The notes below the pieces were generated by a model, which did not search any database, was not told the DNA's origin, and saw nothing but the letters and a program-made list of their open reading frames with translations. From the NCBI GenBank assembly GCA_947447825.1, contig CANFLL010000001.1, positions 1 to 64,000 of the forward strand: a stretch of DNA of 64,000 nt. The letters run 5' to 3'. Source of the DNA: Chitinophagaceae bacterium. GTDB lineage: Bacteria > Bacteroidota > Bacteroidia > Chitinophagales > Chitinophagaceae. Below, piece by piece: positions 349 through 36,801 of this stretch. Within the stretch, counting starts at the first letter, position 1. Every line of letters starts with the position of its first letter. A program made the translations under genes and the position numbers.

Positions 349-622
349 AAATAATACTTTACAATATCGGCAAGTTATCTAATCGAATGCACACGCCACA
401 GGGGATGCGCTAGCCCTTGTAGATTGAAGTGAGTAACCCGGACTAGTTGGGGTGGTTTGCAACCTTCGCTTGCACAACGATTGCGGAAGACCTGCTTCCA
501 TCTTCTATACAACATTCAAGTATCCTCTTTGATAAGAGTAACTGATTCACGACACACCTCGCGCCAGAGGGAAACTTTGACCTTAGTTTATTCCAGTTAC
601 AAACTGGTTCGACTAGAAGGCA

Positions 623-12033: not shown

Positions 12034-12120
12034 GTTAGTTGTTAGTGTTTAGTTATTAGTTGTTAGAAATACAATTTGATCGCTAACCACTAATAACTAA
12101 CCACTAACCACTAACAACTA
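12034..12120. repeat. Inverted-repeat spacer of TTAGTT words
   Basis: The left half repeats GTTAGT(T)-type words and the right half their complements (CTAACCACTAATAACTAAC), so the spacer can form a long imperfect hairpin. The same vocabulary is reused at 17895-17982 and 55089-55170. Confidence 0.8.
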
Positions 12121-16902: not shown

Positions 16903-17112
16903 TTTCCGTCGTTAAACGGGTCTGTTTTGTAATAAAACCTTTCAGTTCCGTCGCTAAACGGGTCTGTTTTGTGACAAAACCTTTCTGTTCCGTCGTTAAA
17001 CGGGTCTGTTTTGTGACAAAACCTTTCTGTTTCGTCGTTAAACGGGTCTGTTTTGTGACAAAACCTTTCGGTTTCGTCGCTAAACGGGTCTGTTTCGTGA
17101 CAAAACCTTTCG
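16903..17112. repeat. 21-nt periodic dyad array 2 (ten units, A/B alternating)
   Basis: Ten units of exactly 21 nt alternate between two types, so the higher-order period is 42 nt. Type A contains CCGTCGTTAAACGG (arms CCGT/ACGG). Type B contains GTTTTGTGACAAAAC (arms GTTTTG/CAAAAC, loop TGA). Boundaries are at 16903, 16924, 16945 and so on to 17112; a decayed start of an eleventh unit (GTTTCATAACG) follows. The array lies 278 bp before the next gene. Confidence 0.95.
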
Positions 17113-17390
17113 GTTTCATAACGCACAATTTGGTACTTGTGCTGGCAAAGTTCCTTTCAATCTGCCCATTCATCAGGTATTTAAGAGCCGAATATATATT
17201 TTAAAATACAAAAAACTTATATGCTCTCCATCTATTCTTATTAAATTAGTGGTATGCTTTAGTTAAGCCAAAACTGTCAAAAAAGTAGATGAAAGCAATG
17301 ATTTCTCCCCAATTTTTAATTTTTGTATTAAAATTGTACTAGTTTGCTTCATTTCTTTTACTTTTACCACTACCAAATAAACCCAATAGA

Positions 17391-17894: not shown

Positions 17895-17982
17895 TTGTTA
17901 GTTATTAGTGGTTAGTTGTTAGTGTAAAGTTTAATAAACAAATAGCTAATAACTAACCATTAATAACTAACCACTAATAATT
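17895..17982. repeat. Inverted-repeat spacer of TTAGTT words
   Basis: The words TTAGTTATTAGTGGTTAG on the left and CTAATAACTAACCATTAAT on the right can pair imperfectly. Same vocabulary as 12034-12120. Confidence 0.75.
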
Positions 17983-18003
17983 AAATAATTAATAACTAGA
18001 AAT

Positions 18004-27090: not shown

Positions 27091-27637
27091 TTAATTTTCT
27101 ATTTGTTAGTATTCTACAACAATTACCAATCTTTTTATGAAAGTAAAGATATGTTTCTTCTTTATACTGTTGACCAAATAGAAAAATCACTCCTTCTTAA
27201 TCCCCCCTCCAATAATAAATCTTCAAAGAATTGCGATACCTATAACTTTACTACTTCGGAGAAACAGTATGGCTTTAGAATGACTGTTTCTGCATAGCCT
27301 CACCTTCGTTAAAACCTTTCATTTTACAATTTATTGAGTAGTGCAGACTTTAAACTCGCTGGAGTTTAAAGTAAACTAGTTGGGATTTAAAGTAAACTCG
27401 CTGGGATTTAAATTAAACTCGCTGGGATTTAAAGTAAACTCATTGGAGTTTAAAGTAAACTCGCTGGAGTTTAAAGTAAACTCGTTGGGATTTAAATTAA
27501 ACTCGCTGGAGAATAGTTACTCAAGACTGCCATTTTAACCTATATAAACCCAATAGTATCATCACTAAATTATTTATTAGAAAGAATATTTATCAATCAC
27601 AAAAGCTTGCTTAGGTAAGTGGTTAAAACGTAGCAAT
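27091..27637. other. Spacer between divergent MTase and array-3 gene
   Basis: No gene is seen. The region carries the methyltransferase promoter side and array 3 (27334-27522), followed by about 115 bp of AT-rich leader for the next plus-strand gene. Confidence 0.7.
27334..27522. repeat. 21-nt periodic dyad array 3 (nine units)
   Basis: Seven clear units of 21 nt start at 27355, 27376, 27397, 27418, 27439, 27460 and 27481, with decayed units on both sides in register. The core is ACTCGCTGGAGTTTAAA in some units and CTCGCTGGGATTTAAA in others. At the first unit TTTAAACTC-GCTG-GAGTTTAAA is a perfect dyad (arms of 9). A second variable position alternates AAAGTAAA and AAATTAAA. Confidence 0.94.
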
Positions 27638-33442: not shown

Positions 33443-34630
33443 TTAATTTGGATCTGTTGCTGGTGAAACGGTGTTGTCGGAACCACCATTCAAATCGAAG
33501 GTTACTCCAAACCTTAGTGTATTAGATAATGGATTTTGGTTGATGCCACTTCCTCCAGATGGAACCAAATAGGATAAATCGATGTTCACGATATTATATT
33601 TTAAACCAGCCCCAAAGGTTAAATATTTTAAGTTTCCTTGGCTTGCATCTTCATAATGATAACCTGTTCTTAAAAAGAATTGATCTGCATAGCAATACTC
33701 TATACCCAATGACCCTTGCAACAATTGAAGTTGGTTACCACCTTTAAATGATTTAAAATAACTACTAATAACACTTTGCGTACGGTAAGCTAAAGAATCA
33801 GCACTGTAAGCAGATGCATCTCCATTAGATACAGGGGCTGCTGGAACCAATAGTTTATTTACATCCAAAGAAAAAGAAATTCTGTTGCTTTCATTGGGTA
33901 CTGAAGTATAGGAAATACCTGCGCCTAAATTAGCTGGAATATAGTCTTTATTACGAGCATCATTTGTGTAGCCAATCTTAGCTCCTAGGTTTGATAGCGC
34001 AACTCCCCAACTGATACCTTCGCCGTTTTCGCCTGGTGCATTTTTAAATAGCGATATATCTCCTGCAACAGAGGTACCTGTTTTATAAACCACACCATTA
34101 CTACTAGCACCATTAGCAAGACTACTGCTAATGTATCGAAGGCTAACCCCTAAACCAAGTTTCTCCCCCAACTTACGAGTATAGCCAAAATCGAATCCTA
34201 ATTCGTAAGGATTGTATGAATTTAAATTGTCACCATTTTCGTTTGTAAATTGAATATTACCTAAACTAAAATAGCGTATTGATGCCGCAATAGCATTGAT
34301 GCCATCAATTTTGTGATAACCAGCGGCACTCAAAAAATATACGTCATTAAGCCCTAAAGCATGCAACCAAGGGGTATAGGTGGCGCCAACAGAATTGTCA
34401 TTCTTAGTGAAAGGAATTTTTGCTAGGTTCCAGAAGTTGGAATTCGCATCTGGTGTGGTGGCAACACCTACATCACCCATACCACCAGCACGAGCATCGG
34501 GCGTAATGCGTAAAAAAGGAACGGCGGTAGTAACGATGTTGATTTTGCTTGCATCTTGTGCATTAACACAACCAACAATACCAACAACCAATAATAATAG
34601 AGACAAACGCTTAACTGATGATTTTTTCAT
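33443..34630 (-). CDS. porV: T9SS outer-membrane protein PorV (LptO)
   Basis: A 395-residue barrel of the FadL-like PorV family, which carries T9SS cargo from the translocon to the PorU sortase. It has a signal peptide (about 1-24, MKKSSVKRLSLLLLVVGIVG) and the diagnostic FLRITPDARAGGMGDVGVAT followed by WNLAKIPFT, YTPWLHALGLNDVYFLSAAG, and the barrel end LRFGVTFDL. A short acidic tail (GGSDNTVSPATDPN) follows. It fits the many T9SS sorting domains in this window. PorU, which often sits directly upstream of porV in this phylum, is absent: 1.2 kb of gene-free DNA with array 4 precedes it. Confidence 0.95.
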   Translation of the reverse strand: MKKSSVKRLSLLLLVVGIVGCVNAQDASKINIVTTAVPFLRITPDARAGGMGDVGVATTPDANSNFWNLAKIPFTKNDNSVGATYTPWLHALGLNDVYFLSAAGYHKIDGINAIAASIRYFSLGNIQFTNENGDNLNSYNPYELGFDFGYTRKLGEKLGLGVSLRYISSSLANGASSNGVVYKTGTSVAGDISLFKNAPGENGEGISWGVALSNLGAKIGYTNDARNKDYIPANLGAGISYTSVPNESNRISFSLDVNKLLVPAAPVSNGDASAYSADSLAYRTQSVISSYFKSFKGGNQLQLLQGSLGIEYCYADQFFLRTGYHYEDASQGNLKYLTFGAGLKYNIVNIDLSYLVPSGGSGINQNPLSNTLRFGVTFDLNGGSDNTVSPATDPN

Positions 34631-35216
34631 CTAATTGATTAAATTTAAAGTTCTGCAAATAAAGTAAAGAAAACTACAATTTAGTTAAAAACGATTTCAA
34701 TAATGTAGTTACGCGTAGAGTTGTATTCTATAATCAGTAAGTTGTAAGAAGAATTTATATGGTGATTACTTTTTTCACCGATGCAATGATACAGCAATTG
34801 TTTTTAATTTTTTATCAGAAACAGGAACTTTTATGTTTGATTATATATTTTAACCAAGATTTTGCAATAAAATATTGAGTAACTATTCACGTGTATATGA
34901 ACAACAAAAACCACTTAGGATGTCACAAAGAACACAAGGATTTGTTGTTCTCGGTGTTCTATCCTATAGCTTTCTTTTGTATAGAATTTAATTAAAACGA
35001 TTTGCCTCTATTAGCACTGATAAAAAACGAATCTCTTTTATTGGCTTTAACATTACCATCAGCAGTAATTTTTTTTACATAAGTTATATAAATAGAAAAT
35101 AGGGGGGACACTAATTTCAGACTTTGCAATGAATTTGGCGTGCTTATGATTAAAATGCCCACTGATTAATAACAATCTTTATACTGATTACTGGTCGGTT
35201 TAGGTTATTATACCCC

Positions 35217-35572
35217 AACTTTTACGTCAATCAACCCGTGCTTTACGTTAGGCAACCCCGTGATATAGGTAAAAGACCACAATTTTTGATAGAGATAACC
35301 CATGGTTTAGGTAAATAAGTGCGTGCTTTACGTCAAACAACCCGTGCTTTAGGTAACCAGACGTAAAGCACGGGTTGATTGACGTAAAATTTTACGTAGG
35401 CAGACGTAAAGCTTTACGTATGAGGACGTAAAATTTTACCTAACAAACCTAAAGTTTTAGGCTAACAACGTAAAGCACGGGGTTGCCTAACGTAAAGCAC
35501 GGGTTGATTGACGTAAAACTTTACGTAGGGAGACGTAAAATTTTACGTCTCCCTACGTAAAGTTTTTAAGAT
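35217..35572. repeat. 21-nt periodic dyad array 4 with long inverted arms
   Basis: About 15 units of 20-22 nt. The left half reads CGTGCTTTACGT- and the right half its complement ACGTAAAGCACG, so the array turns over near 35357. Arms 35217-35262 and 35476-35521 are reverse complements over 46 nt with one mismatch. Nested arms 35330-35351 and 35364-35385 match over 22 nt with one mismatch. In the right half, the unit cores are perfect dyads with different centres: ACGTAAAATTTTACGT, ACGTAAAGCTTTACGT and CCTAAAGTTTTAGG. Positions 35515-35566 form a 52-nt perfect palindrome. Confidence 0.95.
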
Positions 35573-35634
35573 TGGTTAAACAGTTAAACTTTAAAAAAGC
35601 AATGGAGGAGGGTATAGAGGGGCGAAAATAAATA

Positions 35635-35665
35635 CGGTCAACAACCCTCAATGTGTTGTTGACCG
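35635..35665. repeat. Perfect 11-bp dyad near the 3' end of the YncE gene
   Basis: CGGTCAACAAC and GTTGTTGACCG are exact reverse complements with a 9-nt loop. On the minus strand it is followed by TATTTATTTT, so it may end transcription of the gene at 35800-36801. Confidence 0.7.
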
Positions 35666-35721
35666 TGCAAGTCATCAATTATTAATCAATGCTTTTTAGT
35701 TTATGGAAATTCTACATACAC

Positions 35722-35799: not shown

Positions 35800-36801
35800 C
35801 TATTTGCCAACAACCAATACCTGAAATGTACCAGGTATTGCTTTTGGTCTTTTACCTGTATTAGTAGCTTCCAAATCTGCTGTAGGAGTGTAGAGTAAAT
35901 GAGTGGCTTCATCTAGTGCAATTGTTCTTGCTCCTTTCTTTGATATAAAATTCTCAACCACAGAATATTTATTTGCATTATCCTCATGAATAACGGTAAT
36001 GGTTCCATCTTCGCCATTGGAAGTGTAGATGTTTTTACTTGCAGCATCAAAAGCATTACCATCGCAACCTCCACCAATTGGCAAATCGGCAACTATTGCT
36101 CCCGTTTCTTCATTCAGTACTATTAGTTTTTTGTTATCTCCACAAGCTGCAAACAATCTTTTAGTCTTGGTATCTATTGCCAAACCAGTTGGTGCTTCAC
36201 CTGGCGCAATAGGCCAATGTGCAGTAACCACCATCTTTTTTGTATCAATAGCAACCACTTCACTCTTGTCTTCAAGGTTCACAAAAATTTTCCCTTCGCC
36301 ATTACTCACTGCAGTTTCTGGCGCACCCCCCACTGCAATTGTAGCAACAACTTTATCTGTTTCAGGATCTATAAAAGATAAATCTTTGCTTTTGCCATTG
36401 CATACAACTACTTTTTTAATTGATTCATCATAAAAAATAGCATCTGGCTTTTCGCCAGTGGCAACTGTTCCTATCACTTCCAAAGTCTTTAAATTGAATA
36501 TGGAAGCATTGTTTGTTTTGCCATTTGTAGTGTAGCCTTTGTTTAATGATGGCACAAAAGCAATTCCGTGAACACCACTTGTGTTCGGAATTACGCCAAT
36601 TGAATCACCTGTTTTTTTATCAATTACATTCACTTGTGTAGCGTGAGATACAAACAATCTATTACTGTTTGGCTGTACTGCTAGGTAGTCCCAGCCACCA
36701 TTGCCACCAATCCTTAGGGTGCTAATTACTTTTATAGAACCTTGCGCTTGGGCTGCCATGGCAAATGCAACCATCAAACCAACAGAAACAACTTTTTTCA
36801 T
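35800..36801 (-). CDS. Periplasmic YncE-family beta-propeller protein
   Basis: A 333-residue protein with a signal peptide (about 1-20, ending AAQAQ) and a seven-bladed YVTN/YncE-type propeller (blades such as NRLFVSHATQVNVIDKKTGD, KDLSFIDPETDKVVATIAVG, KKLIVLNEETGAIVADLPIG). Family members are secreted or periplasmic binding or metabolic proteins; none of the motifs defines a substrate. It lacks a T9SS C-terminal domain. It has no linked partner and is separated from the adhesin gene by a 261-bp spacer. Confidence 0.85.
   Translation of the reverse strand: MKKVVSVGLMVAFAMAAQAQGSIKVISTLRIGGNGGWDYLAVQPNSNRLFVSHATQVNVIDKKTGDSIGVIPNTSGVHGIAFVPSLNKGYTTNGKTNNASIFNLKTLEVIGTVATGEKPDAIFYDESIKKVVVCNGKSKDLSFIDPETDKVVATIAVGGAPETAVSNGEGKIFVNLEDKSEVVAIDTKKMVVTAHWPIAPGEAPTGLAIDTKTKRLFAACGDNKKLIVLNEETGAIVADLPIGGGCDGNAFDAASKNIYTSNGEDGTITVIHEDNANKYSVVENFISKKGARTIALDEATHLLYTPTADLEATNTGKRPKAIPGTFQVLVVGK

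Follow-up and report, generated by a model that had tools for sequence, protein, structure and literature searches.

A tandem array of short palindromic units, referred to here as array 4, lies between a YncE-like beta-propeller gene and a PorV-family gene. Positions are those of the window, the whole 64,000-nucleotide stretch of Chitinophagaceae DNA that was analysed. The features of the locus are given below, with strand where one is assigned.

33443–34630 (-): PorV-family gene, downstream of array 4 (Pfam PF19572, E 1.8e-50)
about 35187–35572: array 4, whole element, the stretch homologous to the copy on contig C58
35217–35262 (+): left outer arm, 46 nt, one mismatch
35327–35354 (+): left inner arm, 28 nt, 93%, inverted-repeat pair I7
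35361–35388 (-): right inner arm, 28 nt, 93%, inverted-repeat pair I7
35382–35445: central palindromic units ACGTAAA-NN-TTTACGT, linkers of 5–6 nt, period 22
35476–35521 (-): right outer arm, 46 nt, one mismatch
35510–35531 (+): 22-nt unit with linker AGGGAG, missing in the C58 copy (two-copy alignment)
35515–35566: perfect 52-nt palindrome
35634–35666: stem-loop after the YncE-like gene and before array 4 (inverted repeat I21 and position relative to the gene)
35800–36801 (-): YncE-like beta-propeller gene, upstream of array 4 (Pfam PF21783, E 1.6e-10)

Architecture of array 4 and its locus

Array 4 is an intergenic run of the half-sites ACGTAAA / TTTACGT at a step of 21–22 nt, in which the variants CCTAAA / TTTAGG also occur. 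The units are of two kinds, palindromic (ACGTAAA-NN-TTTACGT with a linker of 5–6 nt) and asymmetric, of the form ACGTAAA-GCACGGGTTGATTG; the asymmetric units on the left are oriented opposite to those on the right. A sequence-only reading of the same DNA had described outer arms of 46 nt with one mismatch, about 213 nt apart, together with inner arms, unit centres AT, GC and AC, and the two kinds of unit ends. The coordinates bear out the outer arms, which extend to 54 nt at 93%; the inner arms are present, and the centres and ends match. The perfect 52-nt palindrome was confirmed from the sequence and is the longest zero-loop palindrome of the window, the runners-up being 16 nt long. The claim that the left half of the array mirrors the right holds for the orientation of the units and for the outer 54 nt, and does not extend to the array as a whole.

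Single-strand folding of 35190–35580 was compared to dinucleotide shuffles and gave z-scores of -18.4 for RNA of the plus strand, -20.3 for RNA of the minus strand and -19.5 for DNA. When the control preserves the 21-nt periodicity, RNA folding remains at a z-score of about -18, a value more extreme than that of any other among the 58 arrays folded.

The stem-loop at 35634–35666 is probably the terminator of the YncE-like gene. In the window genome (G000) the two flanking genes are separated by 1170 nt. The pair was seen together in six congeneric species (G001, G002, G003, G004, G006 and G010), where the two genes are 301–390 nt apart with no array between them; array 4 was thus gained in the window genome. 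Next to array 4, at 34866–34948, is a repeat about 70 nt long that is dispersed in the genome, with some 40 relatives of 73–84% identity; it belongs to the extra sequence, roughly 800 nt, by which G000 exceeds its congeners at the locus. Upstream of the YncE-like gene, three congeners (G004, G003 and G001; loci L190, L191 and L193) have tandem 21-nt-like repeats whose sequence is unrelated from species to species, and the neighbouring genes on that flank likewise differ among the three.

A genome-wide class of 21-nt arrays

Tandem Repeats Finder, run on 864 kb of the genome with a minimum array length of 80 nt and a period of 21/22 or multiples of it, gave 56 arrays of period 21/42/63, mostly of unrelated sequence: 48 are intergenic, 6 coding and 2 at the edge of a stretch. 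Scaled to the 4.65-Mb genome, this corresponds to about 300 arrays; the assembly is a draft of 187 contigs, and array densities and family counts rest on samples of it. Autocorrelation gives sharp peaks at 21, 42, 63, 84 and 105. Congeners mostly have 3–8 arrays per 100 kb (about 1 in G007), and zero such arrays were found in 339 kb from other genera of the family. Three further arrays of the class lie in the window:

16904–17141: array with a 42-nt period, of unrelated sequence
27351–27510: array with a 21-nt period and relatives on contigs C3 and C5
52913–53120: array with a 21-nt period

The window also holds heptamer arrays of the GTTAGTT / CTAACAA type (12034–12120 and 17897–17998), oppositely oriented across a short gap. 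They resemble in kind the TAACTGA repeats that have been reported from Beggiatoaceae (PMC4679880). At 414–499 (-), a group II intron domain (RF01999) matches marginally in Rfam, at 36.5 bits where the cut-off is 36.

Dyad symmetry is a property of the class. Columns were permuted within the 21-nt unit, which keeps period and composition and destroys dyads, and compared to these permutations the dyad score of the consensus units reaches a Stouffer z of 9.6, against 2.4 for a mirror-symmetry control. Perfect inverted repeats occur at 14.8 per kb in arrays and 3.7 per kb in other intergenic DNA. Folding against period-preserving controls is given as counts, the mean being undefined with one permuted set of zero variance: 38 of the 58 arrays fall at z<-2 and 0/58 at z>2. 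A universal array motif was sought and rejected. CGAC is found in 24/58 arrays (11.9 expected), and CGAC and CGTC are enriched about twofold, an enrichment that is only partial. Compensatory covariation across hairpin arms, hinted at by arrays in G140, a genome of the same order, gave a table p of 0.13 and is not claimed.

With gene calls from a simple codon-model caller, arrays avoid the 49 nt preceding start codons, yet reach stop codons. The intergenic settings are codirectional in 20 cases, divergent in 19 and convergent in 9, compared to 28.6, 13.7 and 5.7 expected by length (p 0.04). Along eight contigs the arrays are more evenly spaced than expected, with a coefficient of variation (CV) of 0.53 (58 arrays, mean 12.1 kb) where nulls give 0.85–0.93 (p<=0.001), and a set of 71 arrays behaves likewise (CV 0.62, mean 10.6 kb; nulls 0.85–0.93, p<=0.001). 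The result is stable under length-weighted, gap-weighted and uniform nulls and with larger candidate gaps, and each part of the sample shows it separately (C1, p 0.004; C2–C8, p 0.0007). In G004 the effect was not replicated (p 0.04–0.09 at the looser threshold, 0.28–0.38 at the stricter), and G006 has too few arrays for the comparison. The over-even spacing is strong in this genome, the only one in which it is shown.

Many arrays have relatives at other loci. Within the sampled 16–19% of the genome, 37 of 71 arrays have a relative elsewhere, giving 13 families and 34 singletons. Dispersed families share 68–89% identity, and the gaps between family members cluster at 21 (9 cases), 42 (5) and 84 (3), plus small ones. 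Two other arrays have counterparts in G004 at 94% identity. One intergenic array (G000:C1:73420-73619) has 94% identity to its G004 counterpart, compared to 91% and 81% for the two genes that flank it; this excess is a hint of constraint or recent exchange.

The TGAGTC family is carried by a MITE-like element of about 580–730 bp, present at G000:C1:211738-212445 (L296 1501-2208) and at some 30 further sites in the genome. The element has 17-nt terminal inverted repeats, TTAATTCTACTTTGACA, of which 56 ends were found compared to 8 for a reversed control pattern, and its TGAGTC-family 21-nt array differs in length among copies by multiples of 21 nt. Terminal inverted repeats were rejected as a general feature of arrays (4/58 compared to 2 in the control), and in the case of array 4 none of at least 12 nt was found within 400 nt.

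The distribution of array 4 is patchy. Of 396 genomes of the order, 2 have its two-unit motif, and in a draw of 395 genomes from the class the window genome alone has it. A related family is present in another Chitinophagales assembly and a similar palindrome in Flavobacterium jejuense; in a pattern scan of genome contigs, which also drew many unrelated 21-nt repeats, some within open frames, the palindrome ACNTAAA-NN-TTTANGT was shared only by the Flavobacterium jejuense and MAG-366 loci. Mobile carriers were considered and rejected, phage and plasmid records being unmatched and the two-unit pattern having no match in viral contigs.

Origin of the 52-nt palindrome

The copy on C58 aligns along the whole of array 4 with a mean column identity of 86%. 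Homology between the copies on C1 and C58 begins at ACTGGTCGG and stops at about TTTTTAA. The two differ by whole 22-nt units. One additional unit is present in C58, on the left, and the 22-nt unit GACGTAAAACTTTACGTAGGGA at 35510–35531 is present only in C1. The linker of this unit (AGGGAG) is inverse to the one that follows (CTCCCT), and it is their adjacency that completes the 52-nt palindrome. In the relatives of array 4 on C58, C20 and C21, unit orientation likewise switches from outward to inward. Near-perfect palindromes of 48–50 nt are also present in the TGAGTC family, at two loci.

The sequence-only reading had offered an active generating process or a very recent origin for the palindrome. 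Both find support, as C58 lacks exactly the unit at 35510–35531, the six congeners have no array here, and other families differ by steps of 21, 42 and 84 nt. The half-sites are themselves palindromic, so that a unit may re-insert in either orientation; a single insertion of a unit in the inverted sense would have made the palindrome, the inversion being deduced from the unit difference. The same reading had also argued that a palindrome this long should be unstable in bacteria and that its persistence could point to selection. This argument fails, because four inverted repeats of 54–68 nt are present outside arrays in 764 kb of the same genome, one of them perfect and without a loop, and a 52-nt palindrome is therefore unexceptional for this organism. 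Three of the four have the A-tract/T-tract form of bidirectional terminators. In E. coli, strong palindrome instability goes with clearly longer palindromes.

That array 4 belongs to a class defined by its architecture of 21–22 bp dyad-symmetric units, and that its palindrome arose in a unit-wise manner, can be held with considerable confidence. The long palindrome would then be a by-product rather than a selected feature. A striking long palindrome can arise as a side-effect of array evolution and need not itself be the object of selection.

Explanations for the arrays

Tandem repeats of constant size (20–21 nt), variable sequence and unknown function have been described in Bacillus and other bacterial groups (Subirana and Messeguer, PMC8161180; background in PMC6749651), mostly in non-coding DNA, with several families per genome and lineage-specific abundance. 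The arrays in this genome are alike in a length that is constant over unrelated arrays (21–22 nt in array 4 itself), in their mostly non-coding position (48/56 intergenic) and in their several families (13, plus 34 singletons). Neither "palindrome" nor "hairpin" appears as a word in PMC8161180; what the present analysis adds, for a genus of Chitinophagales, is dyad symmetry, even spacing and unit-wise inversion. In Porphyromonas gingivalis, also a member of the Bacteroidota, the BrickBuilt MITE (PMC4596501) occupies 19 places with a single 23-nt family. It too is a minisatellite between genes whose repeat spans about two helical turns, some of its copies lie within elements bearing terminal inverted repeats, and the TGAGTC family closely resembles it. 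BrickBuilt is a single family, whereas many unrelated 21-nt families are present here and array 4 was found without terminal inverted repeats.

Other systems are less close. REP, BIME and REPIN elements (RAYT-associated, CGTC-tagged; PMC3733652, PMC6006769) are likewise small palindromes between genes and can form clusters in which orientation alternates, but the arrays here differ in being unrelated in sequence from one to the next and in their fixed 21-nt step. RAYT-driven REPs were rejected: near five PF01797 (Y1 transposase) loci one 21-nt array was found, about as chance would give, and the motif cluster of array 4 was absent. At one locus (L164, G000:C114) an intact-looking Y1_Tnp gene (153 aa) lies beside repeated CCTCCAGATTTATCTGGAGG-type palindromes; the two likely form a genuine REP-transposase pair that is not related to the 21-nt arrays. 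CRISPR arrays share regular repeats with partial dyad symmetry, but the linkers of array 4 are 5–6 nt long, unique spacers of 30–40 nt are absent, and the only Cas1 is on another contig, C111. Rfam gave array 4 sub-threshold matches only, mostly to miRNA precursors, as is typical of any long hairpin.

An assembly artefact such as a fold-back chimera might be suspected in a draft of 187 contigs. It is very improbable here, because the arms have diverged at several positions and the same orientation flip is seen at C58, C20 and C21, with different flanks; the 48–50-nt palindromes of another family at two loci and the related family in another Chitinophagales assembly also argue against it. A function at the RNA level, in which transcribed tandem hairpins act as terminators, mRNA stabilisers or small RNAs, agrees with the strong single-strand folding of the arrays, with the terminator-like GC-rich stem and T-run on both strands at the palindrome (35519–35562), and with the small RNAs discussed in the literature. 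However, the arrays are not concentrated after genes (19/48 lie between divergent genes, compared to 13.7 expected), the YncE-like gene has its own, nearer stem-loop ahead of array 4, and Rfam has no match to array 4 at its cut-off. An RNA wobble signature was also looked for in the arrays and none was found, G-U mismatches not exceeding A-C on the sense strand (5 compared to 9, few cases). This role is improbable.

The chief rival holds that the arrays are selfish or neutral dispersed minisatellites, copied between loci (some in MITE-like elements) and growing or shrinking through slippage of units, without serving the host; their 21-nt step would stem from the way they are amplified, such as hairpin-primed template switching. 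Family dispersal at 68–89% identity agrees with it, as do the family within an element of roughly 600–730 bp with 17-nt terminal inverted repeats (56 ends compared to 8), the patchy occurrence of the array 4 motif (2/396 genomes of the order) and the species-specific gain of array 4. The avoidance of the 49 nt before starts, with arrays running up to stops, is what tolerated insertions would give. However, the over-even spacing needs an extra cause, as does a constant 21-bp step with dyad symmetry over unrelated sequences, and one array is 94% identical in G004 with flanking genes at 81–91%. Overall, this explanation is a serious possibility, though a somewhat doubtful one, and it is compatible with a binding role if mobile arrays were co-opted.

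The reading preferred here, with a probability of about 0.5, combines the two aspects: the arrays would be mobile and unit-wise evolving, and may give a dimeric DNA-binding protein phased platforms on which to bind. It builds on the class with its period and symmetry, the dispersal of families, the gain at this locus, the whole-unit differences and the over-even spacing in this genome, all of which were observed. Arrays would evolve through gain and loss of whole units, and the 21-bp step, two turns of B-DNA, would be kept because a predicted dimeric protein binds each unit on the same helix face. The putative protein may polymerise, forming a nucleoprotein node roughly every 11–12 kb; Subirana and Messeguer (PMC8161180) suggested that 20–21 nt repeats may let a protein polymerise on DNA. 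The platform role taken alone, for a predicted protein, is a tentative proposal at somewhat below even odds. The lack of a motif shared by all arrays is odd for a sequence-specific binder. Since array 4 is absent at this locus in six congeners, no single array position is essential.

A broader and rather unlikely possibility is that the arrays are a lineage-specific chromosome organiser, free in sequence and fixed in geometry, with dyad-symmetric units per two helical turns and arrays at intervals of about 11–12 kb. A predicted protein would read symmetry and phase instead of sequence, and the arrays would be continually renewed by unit-wise inversion and copying. Arrays of 20–21 nt are a published puzzle with no mechanism attached. 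The symmetry, even spacing and unit-wise change described here make predictions testable, namely a dimeric binder, domain boundaries near 11–12 kb and hairpin-mediated gain of units.
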